This document shows, piece after piece, positions 258 through 20,954 of a stretch of 33,088 nt of DNA. The position numbers were made by a program, and so were the translations under genes. The stretch's first letter is position 1. Each line of letters opens with the position of its first letter. The notes under the pieces were generated by a model. It did no database searches and was not told where the DNA came from. It worked only from the letters and a program-made list of their open reading frames with translations. The stretch is from positions 1 to 33,088 of the forward strand of contig JAGQPV010000003.1 in the NCBI GenBank assembly GCA_020426545.1. Reading direction: 5' to 3'. The DNA comes from Planctomycetaceae bacterium (GTDB taxonomy: Bacteria; Planctomycetota; Planctomycetia; Planctomycetales; Planctomycetaceae).

Positions 258-1037
258 CACACCAGTAACCGAAATGGCTGCCCGGCCTGATTCTTCGCCA
301 GAGGCCGGGCGGCCCGATTCCCGGCAGCGGGCCCCATGCCGGGGAATCGGGACTGGGGATCTGCGCGGAGATTCCCGATCAACCTGCCTGCGGCGGCAGG
401 AGCCCCCCAGGCAGAGGTGCGGAGCGGGGCCCCGCAGCCGGATGTCACTGCATGATGCCTCGGCCCGGTGCATGCCCCCGGTGCATCCGCCCCGTGCCTC
501 CGTCTGATGCAGCGGAACGGCATTCCCGCGGGCCTGCTGCCGGTATGGGCAAACCCGGTGGCGAACAGGCTCCCGGCCGCAAATGGCCTGCGGGGCGTGT
601 TCTTCTTCCCCGTGCAACTTCACCCTGCAGCAGAATCGCCCGACCGGAGTCGCGGTGCCCGATGGCGGTTTCCCACGCAGCACGGGCGACGTGCCGGCAC
701 GGTGCAGCTACCGGCTGGCAGCAGGAAGGAAGCAGCCATTCCCGGCCTCCCGCTGTTCAGACAGGCGGACTGCAGGCGGCTGATCAGGCAGCTGCAATGG
801 AGTGCGCCCGAACAGGCTGGCTGCCCCGTACTTCACAACCGGTGCAGAGTAACACTCGCACCAGTCGATATCGATGTGTTAGAATATCGGCAGCATAATT
901 CACGACAGGGCGGACGTGGCACCCGCCTCCTTCCTGAAGATCCCTCATCCATCCGCCACGAAGCATCGCTCCTGCGGATGGACCTGCCTGACCGCATTCC
1001 CTCAATGTGACTTTGCCCGACTGTGGAGACGGCTTCC
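258..1037. other. Long non-coding spacer upstream of the DUF1501 gene
   Basis: About 780 bases without a convincing gene; the open frames here lack ribosome sites and recognisable protein features. An imperfect hairpin lies at 313-351 (arms CCCGATTCCCGGCA and TGCCGGGGAATCGGG, one bulged base, 10-base loop) and could end transcription of the small upstream gene, although it has no T-run. A TAGAAT (880-885) and a CATAAT (894-899) resemble -10 boxes, but neither has a good -35 partner. Confidence 0.5.
313..351. terminator. GC-rich hairpin after the first gene
   Basis: Arms at 313-326 and 337-351 pair with a single bulged base around a 10-base loop. The position, 56 bases after the stop at 257, fits a transcription end. 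There is no T-tract, so the call rests on stem strength only. Confidence 0.35.
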
Positions 1038-2498
1038 ATGCGAATTCCTCCCGGCCATCGCTTCCAGCACGATCACGCTTTCAATGCGTTCAATCCGCTG
1101 GTTCCTGAAGGTCTGACGGTTCTGAGCCGACGCAATATGCTCAAAGCCTCGCTGGCGGGCCTCGGCGGCCTGTCGGTGCCCGGCCTGCTGAAGCATCAGG
1201 CACAGGCGGCGCAGAGCGGCAAATCCTCCACCAATGGCCGCAGCGTGATTCTGCTGTGGATGACGGGCGGCCCGAGTCATATCGATACGTGGGACCCTAA
1301 ACCCCAGCGTCCGGTCAATAACCGCGGCCCCTTCGCCCCGATTCAGACGGCCCTGCCGGGTACGTACATCTGCGAGCACCTGCCGAAGCAGGCCGCCATG
1401 ATGGACAAGTTCACGCTCATCCGCTCGGTGGATCCCCGGAAGAGCAGCCACCAGCCCAACCAGGTCATGCAGACGGGCAACCTGGAAGCTGCTCCCCGGT
1501 CGAACCCCAAGGGCGACCGCTACCCGGCGATTGCCTCGGTCTGCTCGAAGTTCCGCGGAGCAAACGACCCGACCATGCCCCCGTACGTGGCCTTTTACAG
1601 GCACGATTCCCACGTGGCCTGGGCGGGTTACCTCGGTCGGGAATACGATCCTTTCAACGGGAACGATGCCGCCCGGCTGCCGGTTTATTCGCTCACGGGG
1701 CAGAAAACCGGCGGAATGAGCGGCGGAAACCTGTTCTCGCTGGCCGGTGGACTGAACCACGAACGGATTCTCGAACGCCGCTCGCTGCAGCAGCAGTTCG
1801 ACCGTCTGCGGACCAACCTCGACCGGAACGGCTCGATGGAAGCCCTCGACACGTACGGCCAGCAGGCCGTCGAGATGGTGGTGGGCGGCAAGGCACAGCG
1901 GGCGTTCGATCTGTCACAGGAGTCGGATTCCGTCCGGGCCCGTTACGGAGACCACCTGTGGTGCCAGCAGGCGCTGCTGGCCCGGCGACTGGTGGAATCG
2001 GGGGTGAGTTTCGTCACGCTCGACCTGAGCTATCACACGGCTTCCGGAACCTGGGACAACCACGGAATTCCGGGGGGAGTGTATGGCGGCATCAGCAAGG
2101 GACTGCAGCCGCTGCTGCCCCTGTTTGACCACCTGCTGACCACGCTGGTTTCCGACCTCGAAGAGCGGGGGCTGCTGGAAAACACACTGGTGATTGCCAT
2201 GGGCGAGTTTGGCCGCACGCCCAACATGGGCACGCAGGGCAGCACCGATGGCCGTAACCACTGGCCAGTTGTGATGTCGATGTGCATGGCGGGTGGCGGG
2301 CTGAACCACAGCCAGGTGATCGGGGCCTCGACTCCCGATGGTGCCAATATTCTCGAACGGCCAGTGACTCCCGGCGACCTGGCCGCCACAATTTACCGGT
2401 ATATGGGCGTTCCCGTCGACGGAACCTACCTCGACGACCGTCAGCGTCCCCGGTTCATCGTGGAAGACGGCGCCCCCATGCCGGAACTGTTTGGCTGA
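1038..2498 (+). CDS. DUF1501 domain protein, Tat-exported
   Basis: A 486-residue member of the DUF1501 family, a planctomycete-rich group related to the sulfatase/alkaline phosphatase superfamily. The substrate is unknown. Visible features: a twin-arginine signal (SRRNMLK at residues 30-36, then a glycine/leucine-rich stretch), the family motif WMTGGPSHIDTWDPKP near residue 75, and a C-terminal GEFGRTPNMG...GRNHWP motif. Folded export to the periplasm is inferred. A GTG at 1023 is in frame, but GGAGA at 1026-1030 lies 8 bases before ATG 1038, so the later start is preferred. DUF1501 genes often sit beside a DUF1549/DUF1553 cytochrome-like gene; none is present here. A hairpin follows the stop. 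Confidence 0.9.
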   Translation: MRIPPGHRFQHDHAFNAFNPLVPEGLTVLSRRNMLKASLAGLGGLSVPGLLKHQAQAAQSGKSSTNGRSVILLWMTGGPSHIDTWDPKPQRPVNNRGPFAPIQTALPGTYICEHLPKQAAMMDKFTLIRSVDPRKSSHQPNQVMQTGNLEAAPRSNPKGDRYPAIASVCSKFRGANDPTMPPYVAFYRHDSHVAWAGYLGREYDPFNGNDAARLPVYSLTGQKTGGMSGGNLFSLAGGLNHERILERRSLQQQFDRLRTNLDRNGSMEALDTYGQQAVEMVVGGKAQRAFDLSQESDSVRARYGDHLWCQQALLARRLVESGVSFVTLDLSYHTASGTWDNHGIPGGVYGGISKGLQPLLPLFDHLLTTLVSDLEERGLLENTLVIAMGEFGRTPNMGTQGSTDGRNHWPVVMSMCMAGGGLNHSQVIGASTPDGANILERPVTPGDLAATIYRYMGVPVDGTYLDDRQRPRFIVEDGAPMPELFG

Positions 2499-3144
2499 CG
2501 GCCACCATCCCCTGCAGCGTCTGCTCCCTGTGTCTGTCAGGCAGGCCCCACCGCACCGCATGCCCCCTCAATCTCGAGGGGGCGGTCCGGGCGACGGCGC
2601 GGTCTCCCGCAGGTGAAGCAGAGTGTCCCGCTGAGGAACCTCCCGCAAAGCAGCCCGGCCCGCATCGCAGTGACTTTCTGTGACCCTCTCCACTGCGGTA
2701 TAGTGCCTGACACCGTGTCGCCCGGGCTGCCGCTGCGCTCTCAACCAGCCGGCACCTGACTTTCACGCGGGGCAGTCCCGCGGGCAATTCTGCTGGTTTT
2801 CCCGGAAGGCATGACCTCCCTCCGGCTGCAACGGGCATCTCGCCTGCAGACGGGAAGATGTCCCGGATGTCTGAAGGTTTGTCCGGAGAACCGCGCCACG
2901 CCACTCGTCGGCGGCGAACGGCGTACGGTTTCCAGCCTGTCAGCCCGGGCCGGTGGTGATGGTCCAGATGCGGCGACTGGTCAGCCGGAGCAGCGGATGG
3001 ATCGTACCGGGCGTGTTGCCCGGTGGATTTTGTGCGGATCGCCAGCGGACTCGCCCCAGCGAAACGCGGAGACATGGAATCGCGGAGACCGCGTTCTGGC
3101 AGGGCAGCCGCCTGTGGAACACAGCAAAGCGGGGGAATGCACAG
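2499..3144. other. Non-coding spacer before the GYF_2 gene
   Basis: About 646 bases with no convincing gene. It contains the hairpin at 2562-2583 and a possible -10 box TATAGT at 2699-2704 with only a weak -35 (TTTCTG, 2675-2680). The frame of the downstream gene stays open upstream to 2953, but that stretch lacks a start with a ribosome site and does not look like protein. Confidence 0.5.
2562..2583. terminator. Hairpin downstream of the DUF1501 gene
   Basis: A perfect 8-bp stem (GCCCCCTC / GAGGGGGC) closes a 6-base loop, 63 bases after the DUF1501 stop. There is no T-run after the stem, so termination is likely but not proven. Confidence 0.5.
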
Positions 3145-4413
3145 ATGAATGAAGGCCAGTGGTACTACGCCCGCGAAGGCAAGCAGCTGGGCCCGGTTTC
3201 TTTCAGCCAGCTGAAGCAGCTGGCGAGCGATGGACGGCTGCAGCCAGGCGACCTGGTCTGGAAGCAGGGCAACCCCGACTGGATGCCGGCGACCGCGGTT
3301 CCGGAACTGTTCGCGGCAGTGCCGATGCCCGGCTCCGGTGCGCACCCGACGATTCCCCGCGGGGGGACCGCTGGCCCGGTCCGCTCCCCGCAGGCGGCAG
3401 GACAGCGACCGACCAATCTGTGGATGACTCTGCTGGATTCCGTCCGCGAGATGGTTCCAGAGCGGGCTCTTCTGGCACTGTCGAGCAGTCTGGCGCGGTG
3501 GGGGCACCTGTCGCTGTTCGTGGCCATGGTGGCTGGCCCGGCGTGGCTGGTGCTGCTGGGCGCCCGAATCGACAGTCTGTTCCCGATTCTGTGCGGAGTG
3601 CTGGCCTTTGTGCTGCTGGCGGTGGGTCAGTTCATGGCCAGCCGCATTCTCGGCACGCTGGAAGTCCTGGTGGAAGGCACCCCCAGCACTCTGGCGGGTT
3701 CAGCCTTTCTGGATGTGCTGGCCCAGCTGTTTCTGGTGGGTTCCGGAGGTCTGTTCGGCTCGTGGATATTCTCGCTGGTCTATAACGACGGGGCCTTCAG
3801 CCCGGTGGTGACCGGTGTGGCCCGGCTGATCGATATGATTCAGGCCTTTCCGGTGATGATTCCTTTCTTCATGCTGCTGACCATGCTTTCCGGACTGCTG
3901 GAAAGCTCGGGAGCGGTGTTTGGCCCGGGGTTTCTGTCGTCAGTTTTCGGTTTTGGCGACAGCAGCCAGTCGGCTCTGGCCCAGCTGGTGACGGTGGCGA
4001 CCGCGGTGCTGATGCTGTTTTACACAGCGATGCTCTGCCTGCACCCGCGCCTGCTGAACGTGAACACCACCCGGACAGCCAGCATGGGGGAAGAGGCAGT
4101 GGGTGTGCTGTCGGCTCTCCTGAAACTGATACTGCGGACGGTGCCCGTGCATTTCGGACTGGGCAGTCTGCTGGGTACCGGTGGACTGGTGCTGGCCGTT
4201 ACACTCAGCTTTGGCAGCGACGAAACACGGGCCACCTCGCTGGCGGTGGCGGTGGTATCCGCCAGTACCCTCGTGGTGAGCATGATGCTGCCAGTCGCGT
4301 GGTATCTGTGCGGCATCTGCTTTTATATTGTGATCGATGTGATCCGCTCGATCCTGCTGCTGCCCGGCAAGCTGGACCGCCTGGCCGGGGGCGGTTCGGA
4401 CCGGCCCTCCTGA
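3145..4413 (+). CDS. GYF_2-domain multi-pass membrane protein
   Basis: A 422-residue protein. Residues 1-57 form a GYF_2 (DUF4339) domain, recognisable from GQWYYAREGKQLGPVSF, LVWKQG and PDWMPA; such domains are thought to bind proline-rich partners. A proline/glycine-rich linker (about 58-95) follows, then a long hydrophobic region with roughly seven or eight membrane spans. GYF_2 domains commonly cap membrane proteins of this kind in planctomycetes, and the catalytic role, if any, is unknown. ATG 3145 is chosen because GGGGGA at 3131-3136 sits 8 bases upstream and the GYF fold begins immediately. The stop is 54 bases before tsaB on the same strand, so the two may be cotranscribed. Confidence 0.85.
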   Translation: MNEGQWYYAREGKQLGPVSFSQLKQLASDGRLQPGDLVWKQGNPDWMPATAVPELFAAVPMPGSGAHPTIPRGGTAGPVRSPQAAGQRPTNLWMTLLDSVREMVPERALLALSSSLARWGHLSLFVAMVAGPAWLVLLGARIDSLFPILCGVLAFVLLAVGQFMASRILGTLEVLVEGTPSTLAGSAFLDVLAQLFLVGSGGLFGSWIFSLVYNDGAFSPVVTGVARLIDMIQAFPVMIPFFMLLTMLSGLLESSGAVFGPGFLSSVFGFGDSSQSALAQLVTVATAVLMLFYTAMLCLHPRLLNVNTTRTASMGEEAVGVLSALLKLILRTVPVHFGLGSLLGTGGLVLAVTLSFGSDETRATSLAVAVVSASTLVVSMMLPVAWYLCGICFYIVIDVIRSILLLPGKLDRLAGGGSDRPS

Positions 4414-5223: not shown

Positions 5224-5826
5224 GTACCCGGCCCGGCGATCCCCTGCACTAACCCCTTTACAGCCGGCAGGATATGCCGATCTCCGCTGATGGCGGCTGC
5301 CCGCGTCCGGCCGGTTCCATAGCGTTCCGGCAGGCTCCTTATGCACTGGTCGCGAGTACGCTGGCAGGGCGCGTACGCCCCCGCTGACCAGCGTTCCGAG
5401 CCGAGACCCCCGGGCCTCCCGGCTCCCTGGCGTCCGCTGAACCAGCCCCGCTGCCGACCACGGAATAGACCTCCCCGCCCCCATCCCGCCATGGGGTTTC
5501 TTCCGATGCCTGAGGTTTTCGCTTGATTTTCCGAGAGTTTCTCACGACTATCGAGTAGAGAACTGCCTGTTTCTACATAATCCACTCTGGTTTGTACGCA
5601 GTTTTCCCCACTTATCTGTACGTCCTTACCGTCCGGCAGCTATTCATTGCAGCTCTTCTCCCTCTGCAACCGCTGCCTGCCTCGCAGCCGATCAGGAAAG
5701 TCGCACCTGATTGCGCTGAAGTTTTTCGCTGTCAGATTCCACGAACGGCTCGTTGTTTCATTTTCTGTTTTTTCTTCCCGTTGTGGGTTCGTCCCGCTGC
5801 CGGGAAGAACTCTGAGGAGTTCCGCC
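5224..5826. other. Non-coding spacer upstream of DUF1559 gene 1
   Basis: About 603 bases. The first half is GC-rich and carries a nested inverted repeat at 5346-5391. The second half (about 5500-5820) is richer in A/T and probably holds the promoter and leader of the DUF1559 gene; TTGATT (5523-5528) with GACTAT 17 bases later is a weak candidate. The gene's frame stays open back to 5647, but that stretch lacks pilin-like content. Confidence 0.5.
5346..5391. repeat. Nested inverted repeat (possible cruciform or RNA hairpin)
   Basis: Outer arms CTGGTC (5346-5351) and GACCAG (5386-5391) enclose inner arms GTACGC (5356-5361) and GCGTAC (5371-5376). Both pairs are perfect. It lies 123 bases after the tsaB stop and may help end that transcript. 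Confidence 0.4.
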
Positions 5827-6762
5827 ATGCTGCGAAATCGTCGACTGCGACCAAAATCCGGCTTTACGTTAATCGAACTGCTGGTGGTCATTGCCATCAT
5901 CGCCATTCTGATTGCACTGCTGCTGCCAGCTGTGCAGCAGGCACGCGAAGCCGCCCGGCGGACGCAGTGCCGCAACAACCTGAAACAGCTGGGCCTGGCA
6001 CTGCATAACTACATCGATACGACCTCGGAAATCATTCCCCGCGGCGTGAATCACTCGAGCGGCCCCGGCTGCTGCTGCGTGACCGATAACGGGCAGTACG
6101 CCTACACCGTTCACACCATGCTGCTGCCCTACATCGATCAGGGTCCGCTGTACAACAACATCAACTTCCAGGTCGATCCCCAGCACGCCAACAATGCGAC
6201 CATTCGCGCGACGCGAATTCAGGCCTTCCTCTGCCCCAGCGCACCATTGCGGGAAGATTCCACCTACGCACCGCATAACTATCCGGTGGCGGGAACGGCT
6301 CACGGTTATGGCCTGTGCGGCATTCACGGCAGCTCCACCTCCAACGGTATCTTTGCTTCCCGCTGGGGGCTGTACAACACCGATACTGCAACCGGCATGG
6401 ATTCGCAGATGAAGCTGAACAAGGTGACGGACGGCACCAGCAACACGATTACCTTCTCGGAGTTTGCCACCGGGCTGGACTATATTCTGCCCGCCGGCCA
6501 TATCATGGGCCGCAGCTGGTTTGATCCCACGGTGAGCTATGGCAACATTGAGTTCACCACATCATCCACCGCCACCCCCAACAACCCCCGCGCCACCTAC
6601 TCCACGACAATCAACTGGGGCACGGTCGGCAGCTATCATGAAGGGGGCGTCCACTGCGGATTCATGGACGGCACCGTCCGGTTCATCAGCGAGAACATCA
6701 GCGGCACCGTCTGGAACCGCCTGTGTGCTCCGCAGGATGGTCAGGTCGTCGAGGTTCCATAA
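5827..6762 (+). CDS. DUF1559 protein with type IV pilin-like N-terminus (copy 1)
   Basis: A 311-residue DUF1559 (SBP_bac_10-type) protein, a family greatly expanded in Planctomycetota. It starts with a prepilin leader: basic residues, then SG before [18 protein letters not shown] (from residue 13, Glu17 being the usual +5 glutamate), continuing into the family signature [16 protein letters not shown] prepilin peptidase should cut after Gly12. The C-terminus has the HEGGVHCGFMDGTVRF motif. ATG 5827 is supported by GAGGAG at 5814-5819, 7 bases upstream. The role is unproven; surface or pseudopilus-like functions have been suggested. A small lipoprotein gene follows, with a hairpin between. The 5' end is close in sequence to the copy at 24543. 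Confidence 0.93.
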   Translation: MLRNRRLRPKSGFTLIELLVVIAIIAILIALLLPAVQQAREAARRTQCRNNLKQLGLALHNYIDTTSEIIPRGVNHSSGPGCCCVTDNGQYAYTVHTMLLPYIDQGPLYNNINFQVDPQHANNATIRATRIQAFLCPSAPLREDSTYAPHNYPVAGTAHGYGLCGIHGSSTSNGIFASRWGLYNTDTATGMDSQMKLNKVTDGTSNTITFSEFATGLDYILPAGHIMGRSWFDPTVSYGNIEFTTSSTATPNNPRATYSTTINWGTVGSYHEGGVHCGFMDGTVRFISENISGTVWNRLCAPQDGQVVEVP

Positions 6763-11693: not shown

Positions 11694-12896
11694 TTACAGC
11701 TGTTCGGCCACACGGTCGACAATCAGCGAGCCGATATTCAACGAAGCCGTGGCAGCCGGCGAAGGGGCATTGAGCACGTTAATCACCCGGTCGGCCGGCT
11801 CGATCAGAAAATCATCCACCAGATTCCCCGTGCGGGCCAGCGCCTGCGCCCGGACTCCGGCGGGTGTCCACACCATGTGCTCGGCCCGCACCTCGGGCAT
11901 CAGCCGCTGCAGCGCTTTGACGAACGCCGCTTTGCTGACCGAACGCCACATTTCTCCCAGCCCGGTTTTCCAGTAGCGGGCCGCCATTCGCAGGAAGCCG
12001 GGGTACGTCAGCGATTCCGTCAGATCGCGGAGGTTGATATCGGTTTTGCGATAGCCTTCACGGGCGAAGGCCAGGACGGCATTCGGCCCGCATTCCACCC
12101 CGCCCAGAGCCATGCGGGTGAAGTGCACCCCGAGGAACGGGAACCGGGGATCGGGCACGGGGTAAATCAGGTTGCGGCACAGGTGCTCGGCTTCGGGCTT
12201 CAATTCAAAATACTCGCCGCGGAACGGGACAATCTGCGAAGTCGGTCTTGCGCCGGACAGCCGGGCCACCCGGTCGGCATGCAGGCCGCTGCAGTTAACG
12301 GCCAGCTGCGATTCAACATCGCCCGCAGTGGACTGCAGCTGCACCCGCCCGCCGACATGGGACATGCCCGTCACCCGGGCCGATGTCAGAATTTCACCGC
12401 CCCGTTCCTCGATGCGGGCGGCCAGCCGGCGGCAGACACCGGGGTAATCGACAATGCCGGCTTCCGGTACGTGAATGGCCTGGATTCCGGCGACGTGCGG
12501 TTCCAGTTCCCGCAGGCGGTCCGGACCGATCAGTTCGCAGCGAATGCCGTTCTGCAGACCGCGTTCGAGAATATTGTTCAGCCGGGGGATTTCATCCTCC
12601 GTGACGGCCACGATCACTTTGCCGCAGATATCCACGGCGACTTCTTCCTGGCGGCAGAACTCTTCCAGTGCCAGGCGGCCCGCGCGGCAGTTGGTGGCCC
12701 GCAGGGAACCGGGGCGATAGTAGATTCCAGAATGAATCACGCCCGAGTTATGGCCCGTCTGGTGGAAGGCCAGCTGCGGCTCCTTCTCGAGCAGAACCAG
12801 CTTCCGTCCGGGATATCGCTCCAGAAAACGGTAGCCCGTCGCCAGCCCGATAATTCCTCCCCCGATGATTGCCAGGTCGGCCTGTCGGCTGCTCAT
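11694..12896 (-). CDS. lhgO: L-2-hydroxyglutarate oxidase/dehydrogenase
   Basis: A 400-residue FAD-dependent enzyme that oxidises L-2-hydroxyglutarate to 2-oxoglutarate and passes electrons to the quinone pool. Features: Rossmann FAD motif [13 protein letters not shown] (residues 10-22), acidic Glu37 after the second strand, and the family signature [17 protein letters not shown] (44-60). [10 protein letters not shown] and [15 protein letters not shown] in the middle are also typical. Length matches the family. A GAGGAC about 11 bases upstream of the start is a modest ribosome site. It lies about 300 bases downstream of the nqr-apbE block and directly upstream of the 2-hydroxyacid dehydrogenase gene, suggesting shared 2-hydroxyacid metabolism. 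Confidence 0.92.
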
Positions 12897-13195: not shown

Positions 13196-14710
13196 TCAGC
13201 GGGCACTGGCCGAAGTCCGGCGGGCCTCGGTGACGGCGGCGCTCAGCGGGCATTCAGTCTCGGTGCAGTTCCCCTGGTCTCCGGGACAGCCAGCGGGAAC
13301 CTCCGGGCCGCAGGCCTCGCCTTCGGCTTTGTCGGCACTGCAGTCATTCCCGGCGGGCGACCGGGGAGCGGTGCCGCCCGCTTCTGCCGGTTCTCCACTG
13401 CAATCGGGAGAAGGCGTCCCGCATGATTCGCACTGCACACCGCCATCTTCGTCCCGCATTCCGGCCAGGCCGCCGCAGCTGCCCTTTAACCGGCGATTGC
13501 TGAAGATGACTCCCGCGGCCATGCCGGCAAACGCAATCAGAAAGACGGCTCCGGAAGCCAGCAGAATCGGCAGCAGGCCGCCCTGATCGTCGTCATCGGC
13601 TGCCCCGTGATCCCCGGTGGCGGAGTTCTCCGCGGCCGGCTGTGCCGCCCGGGCAGGCGACTCATACCTGCTGAAGGCGGGGGTGGCCTGCTCGGTGAAG
13701 GTGCCGTCCTCGTGCCGTTCAATCAGCAGGGCGGCGATCTGATTTTCACTGGCCCATTCATAACCGGCCTCGGGGCCCAGCACCATTAACGTGGTGGCGA
13801 GGCCGTCGGCTTCCATGCAGCTGTCGGCGATGACGGAAACGGAACCCAGACGGTGCCGGGCCGGGCGGCCCGTGCGGGGGTCGATGGTGTGCGAATACTC
13901 CTGCCCGTCGATCTCGACGAAACTGCGGTAGTCGCCCGAGGTGGCCATGGAGGCATCGCTGAGGCGGATCACCCGGTGCAGGGTGCGGCGGCCTCTGATG
14001 GGTGCTTCCACCCCGATTCGCCACGGCGTGCCATCACCCCGCAGGCCCCGCGTGCGGACTTCGCCGCCAATCTCGACCATGTAGGCTTCCGCGCCCAGTT
14101 CATCCAGCAGATGGGCCACGTGATCCACGCCGAAGCCTTTGGCGATGGCGGACAGATCCACCGACAGATCGGGCAGGGATTTGCGGAGGGCGGGAGGATC
14201 GAGGCGAGCCTCCAGATGGGTATACCCCACCCGCTGACGGACACGTTCCAGCGCTGCGGTGGAAGGAACGGCGGGAGGTCCGGCGTCGGGGCCGAAACTC
14301 CACAGACCGACCAGCGGAGCCACGGTCACATCAAAGGCTCCGCCGCTGAGGCGACTGATGCGTTGCGCCTCGCTGACGACGGTGGCTGTTTCCCGGGATA
14401 CGGGGAACCAGTCGGTGCTGGTGCTGCTGTTGAACAGCGAGAGCTCCGAATCGTCCCGCCAGTTGGACATCCCGGCGTTGACACTGTCCAGAGCCTGTTC
14501 GATCTGGCGGGTCAGTGCCAGCCGGTCGGTTCCGCCGGGCAGATCTGTCAGCCGCACATTCCAGGTGGTGCCCATGGTGGCACCACTCAGCTGCGCGCCC
14601 TCGATTTCCGCTTCGCTCGGCGAGCGACAGCCGGCCAGAGACAGACCGAACAGCACCATGCAGAGCAGGGCAGCGGAAGACCGCAGGATGGACCGGAGCG
14701 GATTGAACAT
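13196..14710 (-). CDS. apbE: Fusion: FAD:protein FMN transferase (ApbE) + NqrM-like domain + Cys-rich tail
   Basis: A 504-residue predicted lipoprotein. The signal peptide ends at lipobox LAGC (Cys28). Residues about 40-345 are ApbE, which attaches FMN by phosphoester to threonines of NqrB and NqrC: GATMGTTWNVRL, DLSAIAKGFGVD, TSGDYRSF (257-264), HTIDPRTGRP (274-283) and EADGLATTL (300-308) are all intact. After an acidic linker comes a membrane span (about 378-402), then SNRRLKGSCGGL with Cys412 and a CESC pair (427, 430). Span plus GSCGGL is the hallmark of NqrM (DUF539), needed for Na+-NQR assembly and probably iron delivery. Basic residues after the span predict ApbE outside and the NqrM cysteines inside the cell. 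The tail (431-504) has six more cysteines. It lies 68 bases after nqrF. Confidence 0.9.
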   Translation of the reverse strand: MFNPLRSILRSSAALLCMVLFGLSLAGCRSPSEAEIEGAQLSGATMGTTWNVRLTDLPGGTDRLALTRQIEQALDSVNAGMSNWRDDSELSLFNSSTSTDWFPVSRETATVVSEAQRISRLSGGAFDVTVAPLVGLWSFGPDAGPPAVPSTAALERVRQRVGYTHLEARLDPPALRKSLPDLSVDLSAIAKGFGVDHVAHLLDELGAEAYMVEIGGEVRTRGLRGDGTPWRIGVEAPIRGRRTLHRVIRLSDASMATSGDYRSFVEIDGQEYSHTIDPRTGRPARHRLGSVSVIADSCMEADGLATTLMVLGPEAGYEWASENQIAALLIERHEDGTFTEQATPAFSRYESPARAAQPAAENSATGDHGAADDDDQGGLLPILLASGAVFLIAFAGMAAGVIFSNRRLKGSCGGLAGMRDEDGGVQCESCGTPSPDCSGEPAEAGGTAPRSPAGNDCSADKAEGEACGPEVPAGCPGDQGNCTETECPLSAAVTEARRTSASAR

Positions 14711-14778: not shown

Positions 14779-16002
<1,224 letters not shown>

Positions 16003-16072: not shown

Positions 16073-16687
<615 letters not shown>

Positions 16688-16886: not shown

Positions 16887-17513
16887 TCAGGCTTCTTCGA
16901 CCTGGTCGGGACGAATTGTCCGCACGCCCCAGATGATCAGCCCGATGATGAAAAATGCACTGGGAGGCAGGAGCATCATGCCGTTCGGCTCGTACCAGCC
17001 GCCTTCCTGGGTCACCGACAGGACCTGGAAACCGTACAGCTTGCCGGAGCCCAGCAGTTCGCGGAAGAAGGCGACGATCAGCAGAATCATGCTGTAACCG
17101 ATGCCGTTGCCGATGCCGTCGAGGAAACTCATGCCGACGGAATTCTTCATGGCGTAGCCTTCGGCCCGGCCCATGACGATGCAGTTGGTGATAATCAGCC
17201 CGACGAACACCGACATCTGCTGGCTGACGCCGAAGGCATAGGCCTTCAGAATCTGATCCACCAGAATCACCATCGAAGCGATGATGGTCATCTGCACGAT
17301 GATGCGGATGCTGGAGGGAATCTGCAGGCGAATGGAGGCCACCGCAGCGCTGGAGAAGGCCACCACGAAGGTGACGGCCAGGCACATGACCAGCGAAGTT
17401 TTCAGCTGGGTGGTGACTGCCAGGGCCGAACAGATCCCCAGCACCTGCAGGGCGATGGGGTTGTTGTTCAGGATGGGCCCGAACAGGACTTTTTTCGGTG
17501 AGGCATCAGCCAC
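16887..17513 (-). CDS. nqrD: Na+-translocating NADH:quinone reductase subunit D
   Basis: A 208-residue membrane subunit with six predicted spans, partner of NqrE around the intramembrane iron-sulfur centre. Cys28 ([10 protein letters not shown]) and Cys111 ([16 protein letters not shown]) are the expected ligands. The start is a GTG at 17513-17511 giving [13 protein letters not shown]; no in-frame ATG fits the family. The GTG overlaps the nqrC stop by 8 bases, so translation is probably coupled to nqrC, with AAGGAA about 11 bases upstream. The open frame runs on to 17825, but that part is the shadow of nqrC. Confidence 0.95.
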
Positions 17514-18360
17514 GGGGCACCGATTCCTTTCCGGCAGTTGAACTGCGAAGGCGCTGGAGAAACGGGCCGAAACCCTGTTCGCCGGTTTCTCCACCCAGCC
17601 AGTACTGCAGCAGGCTGCTGATACCGCGGGTGGTGATGGTGGCACCGGCCAGGCCGTCCACTTTGAACGAGCTTTCCGGATCCTGGGGATCGACGGCTCC
17701 CTTGGTGACCTGAATGGCGATGTCGCCATCCTGGTCGAAAGCCTGTTTGGGATGATCCGGGTCGCGCCACAGATCCTTCCAGCGGGGGTTATCCACCTCG
17801 CCACCCAGGCCCGGTGTTTCCCCATGCTGGTAGAATGTCAGCCCGCGAATGGTGGAGAGGTCTTCGTCCAGAGCCAGAAAACCATACAGCGTGGACCACA
17901 GACCATAACCGCGGACCGGCAGCACCCAGCCGGTGATCGGGCCTTCCGGATCATCGTGGACTTCGTACACCACGGAGTATTTTTCCTGCCGGCGAATCCC
18001 GGCGATGTCTTCACTCTGGCTGAGCGGGTCGCTGAGCTTATCGCTCTGCAGCATCTTGTTCAGCGAGTGCGCTTCCGGCGGGACACGGTCTTCCGGCACG
18101 GTGACTCCGCTTTCCAGCCGAATCACCCGCGGAACGATGTGTGCCTCGTAGAGTTCTTCAATGTTCCGGCCGTCGCTGCCGGTGTCCTGGCCTTCCACCA
18201 GAAAGCCGGACGCAATCAGAATGTTGCGGTTCCGTTCTTCGAGGCGGTTGGCATTCTGCAGATCGCGGAGGCCCACCGCCGCCAGGGAAACGGCGACGGA
18301 ACAGACCACGCACAGAATGATGGTGACCTTGAGTGTATGGGCAATCGAATCACGCGGCAT
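17506..18360 (-). CDS. nqrC: Na+-translocating NADH:quinone reductase subunit C
   Basis: A 284-residue subunit with one N-terminal membrane span (about 9-30) and an extracytoplasmic FMN-binding domain. The flavinylation motif [10 protein letters not shown] occupies 235-244, with Thr241 the predicted covalent FMN site; ApbE makes this bond. The fourth motif position is Ala238, where Ser or Thr is more usual. GEVDNPRW (187-194) and [10 protein letters not shown] match NqrC. It overlaps nqrB by 11 bases and nqrD by 8, indicating tight translational coupling. Confidence 0.95.
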
Positions 18361-19597
18361 TGCGGGCGAGCCTCCGTCTGATGTTCGCCTGAACGACGGT
18401 GTAATCGATCAGCGGCGCAAACACGTTGCCGAACAGAATCGCCAGCATGATTCCTTCGGGGAAAGCCGGGTTAATCACGCGGATGAGAATCGTCATCGCG
18501 CCGATCAGGGCTCCGTAGTACCACTTCCCGGTTTCTGTCATGGAGGCAGAGACGGGGTCGGTGGCCATGAACACCAGGCCAAAGGCGAGGCCGCCCACCA
18601 CCAGGTGCCAGTGAGCCGGCATGGCAAACATGGGGTTCGTGGGGCTGCCAAGGTAGTTCAGCAGTGCGGCCAGGCTCATGGAGCCGATCAGCACGCCCGC
18701 CATGATTCGCCAGGAACCGATACCGGTGGCAATCAGCAGGATCGCTCCCAGCAGGCAGGCGAGGGTCGATGTTTCGCCCATCGAACCGGGGATGGTGCCA
18801 AGGAAGGCCTGCAGCCAGGTGAAGTTCAGCCCTTCAGCCCCGGTAATCGCAGTAATTCCCGTCTGCACCGGAGCAATGGCCTGGGCTCCCAGCGGTGTGG
18901 CCGCGGTATAGCCATCCACAGCCGTCCAGACGGTATCGCCCGTGATGAACTTGGGGTGAGCAAAATACAGATAGGCCCGGGCGGTGAGGGCCGGGTTGAG
19001 GAAGTTCCGGCCAGTGCCGCCGAAGACTTCCTTGCCGAAGACCACCCCGAAGCTGATGCCCAGAGCTACCTGCCACAGCGGGATGGTGGGCGGGAGCGTC
19101 AGCGGGAACAGCATTCCGGTAACGAGGAAGCCTTCGTTGATTTCATGCTTGCGGACCACACCGAACAGGACTTCCCAGAACCCGCCGGCCATGTTGCAGA
19201 CCAGGAACACGGGGATGAAATACAGGGCCCCGTGCAGCAGGTTGGACAGCATGCTGCGGGGGTTGTAACCCACACCCAGCAGCTGCATCACGGAATCCCG
19301 CCAGCCGGCCGCTGAAGCCGCGGCGGCCTCAGGATCGAGCTGGTCCAGGGCCAGGTTGGCCTGGTATCCCGTATTCCACATGGCCATGACAATACACGGA
19401 ATCAGGGCGACCACGACGGTGCCCATCATGCGCTTCATGTCCAGACTGTCGCGGACGTGCGAGGCCTGGCTGGTCACCTCACCCGGTGTGTACAGGAAGG
19501 TATCCAGCGCTTCATACAGCGGATAGAGACGTTCCAGCCGTCCCCCCCGCTCGAACTGCGGCTTCACGCGGTCCAGCACATTACGTATCGGCTTCAT
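18350..19597 (-). CDS. nqrB: Na+-translocating NADH:quinone reductase subunit B
   Basis: A 415-residue multi-pass subunit that forms the Na+ path and binds covalent FMN and riboflavin. The flavinylation motif DGYTAAT is at 228-234, making Thr234 the probable FMN site. Typical stretches include [48 protein letters not shown] and a MATDPVSA motif near the end. It begins 10 bases after nqrA and overlaps nqrC. Length matches the family. Confidence 0.97.
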
Positions 19598-19607
19598 CCT
19601 CGAACGG

Positions 19608-20954
19608 TCATCCTTCCTTCTCGATGCGGGTCAGATTGTCCCGCAGAATCGGACCGTATTCATACTTGCCCGGACAGACGAACGTACACAGGCCCAGGTC
19701 TTCTTCGTCCAGTTCCAGGCAGCCCAGCTGCTGTGCCTGTTCCGTATCGCGGATAATCAGCGAGCGGAGCAGGAAGGTGGGCTCGATATCGAGCGGCATG
19801 ACGGCTTCGTACATGCCCAGCGGAACCATCGCCCGGCGGCTGCCTTCCTGCGATGTGGTGAAGCGGAACAGACGGCCCGCCCCCGACAGCGTGGAGGAAT
19901 AAACCCGCTTGATGGAAAATTTGTTGCCGCCCGGCATCTGCCAGCCCAGGAACTCGCGTTCGGTTCCTTCGGGCAGGGCGGAAATCTGTGCGTGATAGCG
20001 GCCCAGCCAGGCGTGGACTCCGGCAGCTGTCCTGCCGGACAGAACCGAACCGGAGATGACACGGTTGATGCCATCGGCCAGGCGCCCGGCTGTCAGGTCT
20101 TCGGTGCTCGCCCCCAGGCGGGTCCGCAGGACAGTCGGCTTCGCGATGCCGGGGCCACCCACAGCCACCACCCGCTCCACCGGCAGTCGCCCGGTGGTGA
20201 ACAGCCGACCGACGGCAATCACGTCCTGTGCGTCGATATGCCAGACGAAACGACGGTCGCTGACGGGGTCGAGCAGGTGAATGTGTGTGCCGGGCAGCCC
20301 CGCGGGGTGTGGTCCGTCGAATGCTTCGGCCTGAATTCCGGGCAGATTGTGCCCGGGAATCACCTGGCCGGCGGCGTGACACAGATAGACCGGGCCATCG
20401 GTCAGGTGTTTGAGGATCTGCAGGCCATGAATGAAGGCTGTTTCGTTTTCACGGATCAGCGGGACGGGATCGGCCGCCAGCGGGCGGGTATCCATCGCGG
20501 TGACGAACAGCGAGCGGGGAACCCGTTCCGGCGAGGGAACCTTCCCGAATGGCCGCTGCCGCAGGGCCGTCCACAGACCGGAGGCCAGCAGATTCTCGCG
20601 GACATCTTCCCGCGAGAGCGTTGTCAGATCGCTGTCCCGCCAGGAACGGAATTCGACTTCCCCGTCTCCGTCCAGAGCAATCACGATGGACTGAAACGCG
20701 CGGCGGGCTCCCCGGTTGATGGCCTGAACCGTACCGCTGCCGGGCGAGGTATAATTGACCCCCGGCGTTTTGCGGTCGGTGAACAGCACCTGACCCAGCT
20801 GGACGCGGTCTCCTTCAGCCACGGCCATCGCCGGCTTCATGCCGACGTAGTCGTCGCCAATCAGGGCCACCGTCCGCACGGGAGGAGCGGGTTCCACCTC
20901 CAGCGGGGGAACTCCTTCAATGGGCAGGTCGAGCCCTCTGGTAATCCTGTGCAT
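19608..20954 (-). CDS. nqrA: Na+-translocating NADH:quinone reductase subunit A
   Basis: A 448-residue cytoplasmic-side subunit, the first gene of the nqr operon. The N-terminus [12 protein letters not shown], the [13 protein letters not shown] segment, [10 protein letters not shown] and the C-terminal [20 protein letters not shown] ending are all characteristic. The ribosome site is weak (AAGTCGG directly before the ATG). Upstream lies an 847-base spacer that must hold the operon promoter. The downstream gap to nqrB is 10 bases. Confidence 0.97.

Follow-up and report, generated by a model that had tools for sequence, protein, structure and literature searches.

Does the gene directly downstream of nqrF in a Planctomycetaceae genome encode a single protein that serves both as flavin transferase and as NqrM-type maturation factor of the Na+-NQR? 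ApbE attaches FMN to NqrB and NqrC, NqrM takes part in inserting the intramembrane [2Fe-2S] cluster, and in Vibrio apbE and nqrM both lie downstream of nqrF (PMC12174285, PMC6209661). We analyzed a stretch of 33,088 nucleotides (contig JAGQPV010000003.1, assembly GCA_020426545.1), called the window here. An earlier note, made from its letters alone, had claimed one 504-residue frame right after nqrF containing a lipobox, complete ApbE motifs, a membrane span at about 378-402 and a GSCGG motif with Cys412 and a CESC pair. The frame was found as claimed. It lies on the minus strand, which the earlier note did not name, and runs from an ATG without interruption to the stop codon, directly downstream of nqrABCDEF and in the same orientation (Table 1).

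Table 1. Positions in the window of the apbE-nqrM fusion gene, its parts and the genes of the nqr operon.
Feature	Position	Strand	Evidence
apbE-nqrM fusion gene	13196..14710	minus	one ATG-to-stop frame, 14710 to 13196, 504 aa
Lipoprotein-type signal sequence, residues 1-28, lipobox LAGC with Cys28	14627..14710	minus	sequence, lipobox rule
ApbE flavin transferase domain, residues 46-328	13727..14575	minus	PF02424, 6nxi match, AlphaFold
Ala/Asp/Pro-rich linker, residues 353-379	13574..13654	minus	low pLDDT, without start codon
Single membrane helix, residues 380-408	13487..13573	minus	AlphaFold helix; acidic before, RRLK after
NqrM domain, residues 381-444, Cys412/Cys427/Cys430/Cys437	13379..13570	minus	profiles, Cys alignment
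C-terminal extension, residues 445-504	13199..13378	minus	sequence
nqrF	14779..16002	minus	TIGR01941 E 5.5e-205
nqrE	16073..16687	minus	aligns with nqrE of relatives; Cys contexts GMCTF, VNCAI
nqrD	16887..17525	minus	TIGR01939 E 4.7e-92
nqrC, FMN attachment motif DGLAGAT	17506..18360	minus	NF003749 above cut-off, E 2e-84; TIGR01938
nqrB, FMN attachment motif DGYTAAT	18350..19597	minus	TIGR01937 E 7e-167
nqrA	19608..20954	minus	TIGR01936 E 1.8e-169

Since NqrB and NqrC of this operon carry FMN attachment motifs, the substrates of ApbE are encoded in its immediate neighbourhood. The nqrD frame has an additional upstream ATG at 17825, inside nqrC, and homology begins near 17504, about 105 residues on; automatic annotation may thus overextend nqrD. 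The fusion gene is directly followed by a gene for L-2-hydroxyglutarate oxidase (11694-12896, minus strand), which also follows apbE-nqrM in loci L038 and L045. Genes typical of planctomycetes occur elsewhere in the window, namely for a DUF1501 protein (1023-2498, plus strand), a GYF_2-domain protein (2953-4413, plus strand) and a DUF1559 protein with an N-methylation motif (5647-6762, plus strand).

The N-terminal half of the protein is a complete ApbE. The Pfam match (E 1.5e-87) covered model positions 1-265 of 266, and the closest solved proteins were FAD:protein FMN transferases, with 6nxi matching residues 36-351 at an E-value of 1e-89. AlphaFold predicted the ApbE fold with confidence (pLDDT mostly >85). 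The lipobox and all three motifs reported by the earlier note were located, TSGDY at residues 257-261, HTIDPRTG at 274-281 and EADGLATT at 300-307, and the motif residues are invariant or nearly so across the aligned fused set. His274 of YSHTIDPRTG is retained; the aligned position is His in 6nxi and Gly in 6nxj.

The NqrM half was less obvious from Pfam. PF04400 (DUF539), against which the earlier note had proposed to check this region, matched residues 401-430 with an E-value of 1.9e-4 and 21.6 bits, 0.4 under the cut-off of 22; together with neighbours in frame the score was 22.3 bits. Because this match was marginal, we built a clade-specific profile from 44 unfused planctomycete NqrMs of stand-alone loci, with the window sequence excluded. 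The window protein reached 91 bits (E 2.4e-26) with this profile, which also retrieved all 48 fused proteins. Consequently, the NqrM match is not a chance one. A planctomycete NqrM profile which included the window sequence gave an E-value of 1e-25 for the window domain, and both Pfam families were matched by 10/10 members of one fused set. Cys412, the CESC pair (Cys427 and Cys430) and a fourth aligned cysteine, Cys437, are invariant in the aligned fused set, and all 48 fused proteins contain a GSCGG-type motif with at least four cysteines within 40 residues of it. A structure search matched no solved structure resembling NqrM. Five further cysteines (456, 467, 474, 481 and 486) lie in the C-terminal extension, which is mostly missing from the aligned fused relatives.

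Between the two halves the AlphaFold model showed a disordered linker (residues 353-378, pLDDT <50), then a helix at the place of the claimed membrane span, then an unstructured tail of low confidence. In 48 fused proteins the mean net charge was -1.6 ahead of the helix and +2.2 behind it, which is consistent with the earlier argument on topology; the N-terminus is thus predicted to lie outside and the cysteines inside. The 27-residue linker stands where unfused relatives have their stop/start junction, and GC3 is high throughout the ApbE/NqrM junction. No in-frame ATG, GTG or TTG occurs from residue 336 up to Met397. Since Met397 sits inside the helix, the NqrM half has no start of its own, and separate internal translation of NqrM from the window gene was ruled out. 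For the same reasons, one frame and no start before the helix, we class it as a domain within a fusion and not as a stand-alone NqrM. ATG, GTG and TTG are all absent from the 28 codons ahead of the helix in 16/48 fused genes, and ATG is absent there in 33/48. Six other fused genes, each with a start codon preceded by a purine-rich stretch, may have an internal NqrM start.

The fusion is widespread and recurrent in planctomycetes and not a local accident. An NqrM match was present in 79 of 170 genomes of the family to which the window belongs. In 47 of these 79 it was part of a long frame (273-609 aa), the remaining frames having at most 180 aa, and a sample of the class revealed the same mixture of fused and unfused forms in other families. 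We examined 101 loci, the window and 100 relatives picked to cover genera and not at random: 48 had NqrM fused with ApbE in frame, 45 had apbE as a gene of its own, upstream and in the same orientation, and eight showed neither arrangement. Public genomes with the fusion include HKST-UBA60, OFTM22, OFTM354, SP200 and ACE_PLA27 (Planctomycetaceae), OFTM39 and casp150-mb.177 (Planctomycetota), IP29b_bin.173 (Planctomycetales) and PL25a_bin.70 (Pirellulaceae). The few loci outside the planctomycetes in the contig profile scan (Latescibacterota, Competibacteraceae, Azospirillaceae, Myxococcales) were all unfused. The earlier note had been concerned that other strains might reveal a frameshift. The fusion turned out to be uninterrupted in many genera, and the separate genes are ordinary adjacent or overlapping ones, not a broken fusion. 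Locus L105 (genome G335) has apbE and nqrM in different frames, and the other examined members of its genus are fused. Here a frameshift in the assembly is likely, because the sequence read in the ApbE frame becomes unrelated ahead of the junction.

The presence of NqrM follows that of the Na+-NQR. Among the 170 family genomes 76 had both nqrD and NqrM, five nqrD only, three NqrM only and 86 neither; most of the eight discordant genomes are incomplete drafts. A separate nqrM elsewhere in the source genome, which the earlier note had suggested to look for, was not detected in this draft of 88% completeness. Likewise, none of the listed fused genomes of the family and of the class sample had a second NqrM match. 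In five species (G137, G194, G266, G291 and G274) the fusion gene lies away from nqrA-F, and within the available sequence neither apbE nor nqrM adjoins the cluster; in G266 the contig stops within nqrF, which puts the 3' side of nqrF outside that sequence. The closed genome G024 (locus L184) of the family contains nqrA-F and no NqrM detectable by profile; the drafts G437 and G438 have nqrD and likewise no detectable NqrM. NqrD and NqrE of G024 keep the four cluster cysteines. NqrM is maybe not needed everywhere, since G024 has nqr without a detectable NqrM. Loss of NqrM in one subclade is possible, because G137 and G194 belong to the same genus and have the fusion gene at a site apart from nqr.

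Fused and unfused ApbEs differ in their N-termini. A lipobox was found in 37 of 44 unfused ApbEs (35 by rule and two by hand), the other seven having a hydrophobic N-terminal segment. The count for fused proteins was limited to the 45 whose N-terminus is intact, and only five of these have a lipobox: the window protein, L102, L127 and, doubtfully, L107 and L166; the call for L036 was rejected by hand. The fused proteins without lipobox mostly begin with a sequence ending in a signal-peptidase-I-like manner, as judged by eye. Fisher's test of the rule calls, before hand corrections, gave p 1e-10, a value to be read with the reservation that related sequences are not independent. Nearly all independent tree contrasts that differ do so in the expected direction, and they are too few for significance. 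The scarcity of the lipobox in fused ApbEs and its frequency in unfused ones suggest that the NqrM helix stands in for the lipid anchor, and we infer that it took over the anchoring from the lipobox. The window protein has both features for export and anchoring predicted from its sequence, the LAGC signal and the C-terminal helix; L194, outside the counted set, also keeps both. The earlier note had described a lipid-anchored ApbE outside the membrane. The lipobox is indeed there, but among fused proteins a lipid anchor is atypical, and the helix makes it redundant.

The unfused genes suggest how the fusion could have been formed. The start of nqrM lies inside the stop codon of apbE, with a 4-nt overlap such as ATGA, in 21 of 44 unfused neighbours, and most others are within 60 nt. 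In L038 (G257), where the locus continues with L-2-hydroxyglutarate oxidase, the junction reads GAGAAACAATGATTACT, TGA being the end of apbE and ATG the start of nqrM. From a junction of this type, fusion would require a frame change and a linker, and no more. The fusion thus probably originated from an apbE and an nqrM that lay next to each other or overlapped. On the tree of the ApbE domain the label fused or unfused needs 13 changes, at least three of them forced by strongly supported branches; on a tree of NqrA, NqrB and NqrF, which is independent of the fused gene, nine changes are needed and at least five forced. Apparently, the fusion arose or was undone several times, fusion and fission being left unseparated by either tree. 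The closest rows to the window on both trees are mostly unfused, with weak support, so its own fusion is maybe a separate event.

An assembly or sequencing error which joined two neighbouring genes is very improbable as a source of this frame. The source genome is in draft form, with 1197 contigs, and an indel could join the genes of unfused relatives, which are adjacent, often overlapping, and in different frames. However, the linker takes the place of the stop/start junction, no start codon is left before the helix, and independently assembled genomes, including the single-contig G291 and G304, have the same architecture. Because of this evolved linker and the many independent fused genomes the error reading was rejected.

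Cleavage within the linker might also split the fused product, releasing ApbE and NqrM as two proteins. In favour are the length, disorder and variability of the linker and the fact that both parts work separately in relatives; yet visual inspection revealed no cleavage site, and the loss of the lipobox in most fused proteins would leave a freed ApbE unanchored. We consider cleavage improbable, and the fused chain presumably stays whole after translation. Equally improbable is that the NqrM part is a mere membrane anchor for ApbE, with its helix in place of the lipid anchor and a cysteine chemistry that is lost or unnecessary. Such an anchor would fit the scarcity of lipoboxes among fused proteins and the marginal PF04400 score of the window protein. 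It would not need the motif and the at least four cysteines kept in 48/48 fused proteins. Moreover, fused genomes carry nqr, yet another NqrM was not found in them, and the window protein retains its lipobox, which makes a second anchor unneeded.

We therefore prefer, with a probability of about 0.78, to regard the window protein as a bifunctional membrane-spanning assembly factor of the Na+-NQR, its two activities being deduced from family membership. The proposal of the earlier note that both assembly factors work as one protein is supported by the presence of both domains and the absence of an internal start, the function of each half being the putative one of its family. The ApbE half, outside the cytoplasmic membrane, would move FMN from FAD to the Thr of DGYTAAT in NqrB and of DGLAGAT in NqrC. 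The flexible linker would then lead into one helix crossing the membrane from outside to inside, and the NqrM cysteines on the cytoplasmic face would help to bring iron to the NqrD/NqrE cluster. Possible, though rather doubtful, is a further proposal that flavin attachment outside and iron-cluster insertion inside are coupled steps: ApbE and NqrM would as a rule bind jointly to the NqrB-C-D-E core during its maturation, and in planctomycetes they would be permanently tied, with the NqrM helix assuming the role of ApbE's lipid anchor.

How the Na+-NQR receives its flavins and its intramembrane iron cluster, and in which order, is poorly known, and the orientation and the partner of NqrM have so far been inferred, not seen. 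Natural fusions in many genera predict a common site of action for ApbE and NqrM on one complex. They also fix the likely topology of NqrM, with the N-terminus outside and the cysteines inside, and the replacement of the lipid anchor by the NqrM helix offers a testable indication that the fused protein functions as a unit. No description of an ApbE-NqrM fusion was found in the literature searched; the 2016 NqrM paper, which was outside this search, may mention it. NqrM is absent from the 2025 ApbE review, the accessible part of the 2021 flavinylation survey mentions neither NqrM nor fusions, and ApbE is unmentioned in the 2014 evolution paper. Each domain is already known; new are their combination, its spread and the anchor exchange.

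Compared with known systems, the window protein shares with ApbE (PF02424; 6nxi, 6nxj, 5mgy and others) the domain, the motifs, the lipoprotein-type signal and the adjacency to nqr. The usual ApbE stops after the domain, whereas the window protein goes on with linker, helix and NqrM, and most fused relatives, unlike the usual ApbE, have no lipobox. With NqrM/DUF539 (PF04400) it has in common the helix followed by GSCGG and three more cysteines, the place at the end of the nqr operon and the tracking of nqrD. However, NqrM is normally a separate small protein (here frames of about 60-120 aa), and in the window it is the C-terminal part of ApbE. Vibrio cholerae has the same gene set, nqrABCDEF with apbE and nqrM, at the same place downstream of nqrF (PMC12174285, PMC6209661), but as two genes instead of one fused gene. 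ApbE is also a domain of a larger protein in trypanosomatids, where it is fused to its target fumarate reductase (review PMC12052999). That fusion joins ApbE to the substrate which receives the flavin, whereas the protein of the window joins ApbE to a second assembly factor for another cofactor.
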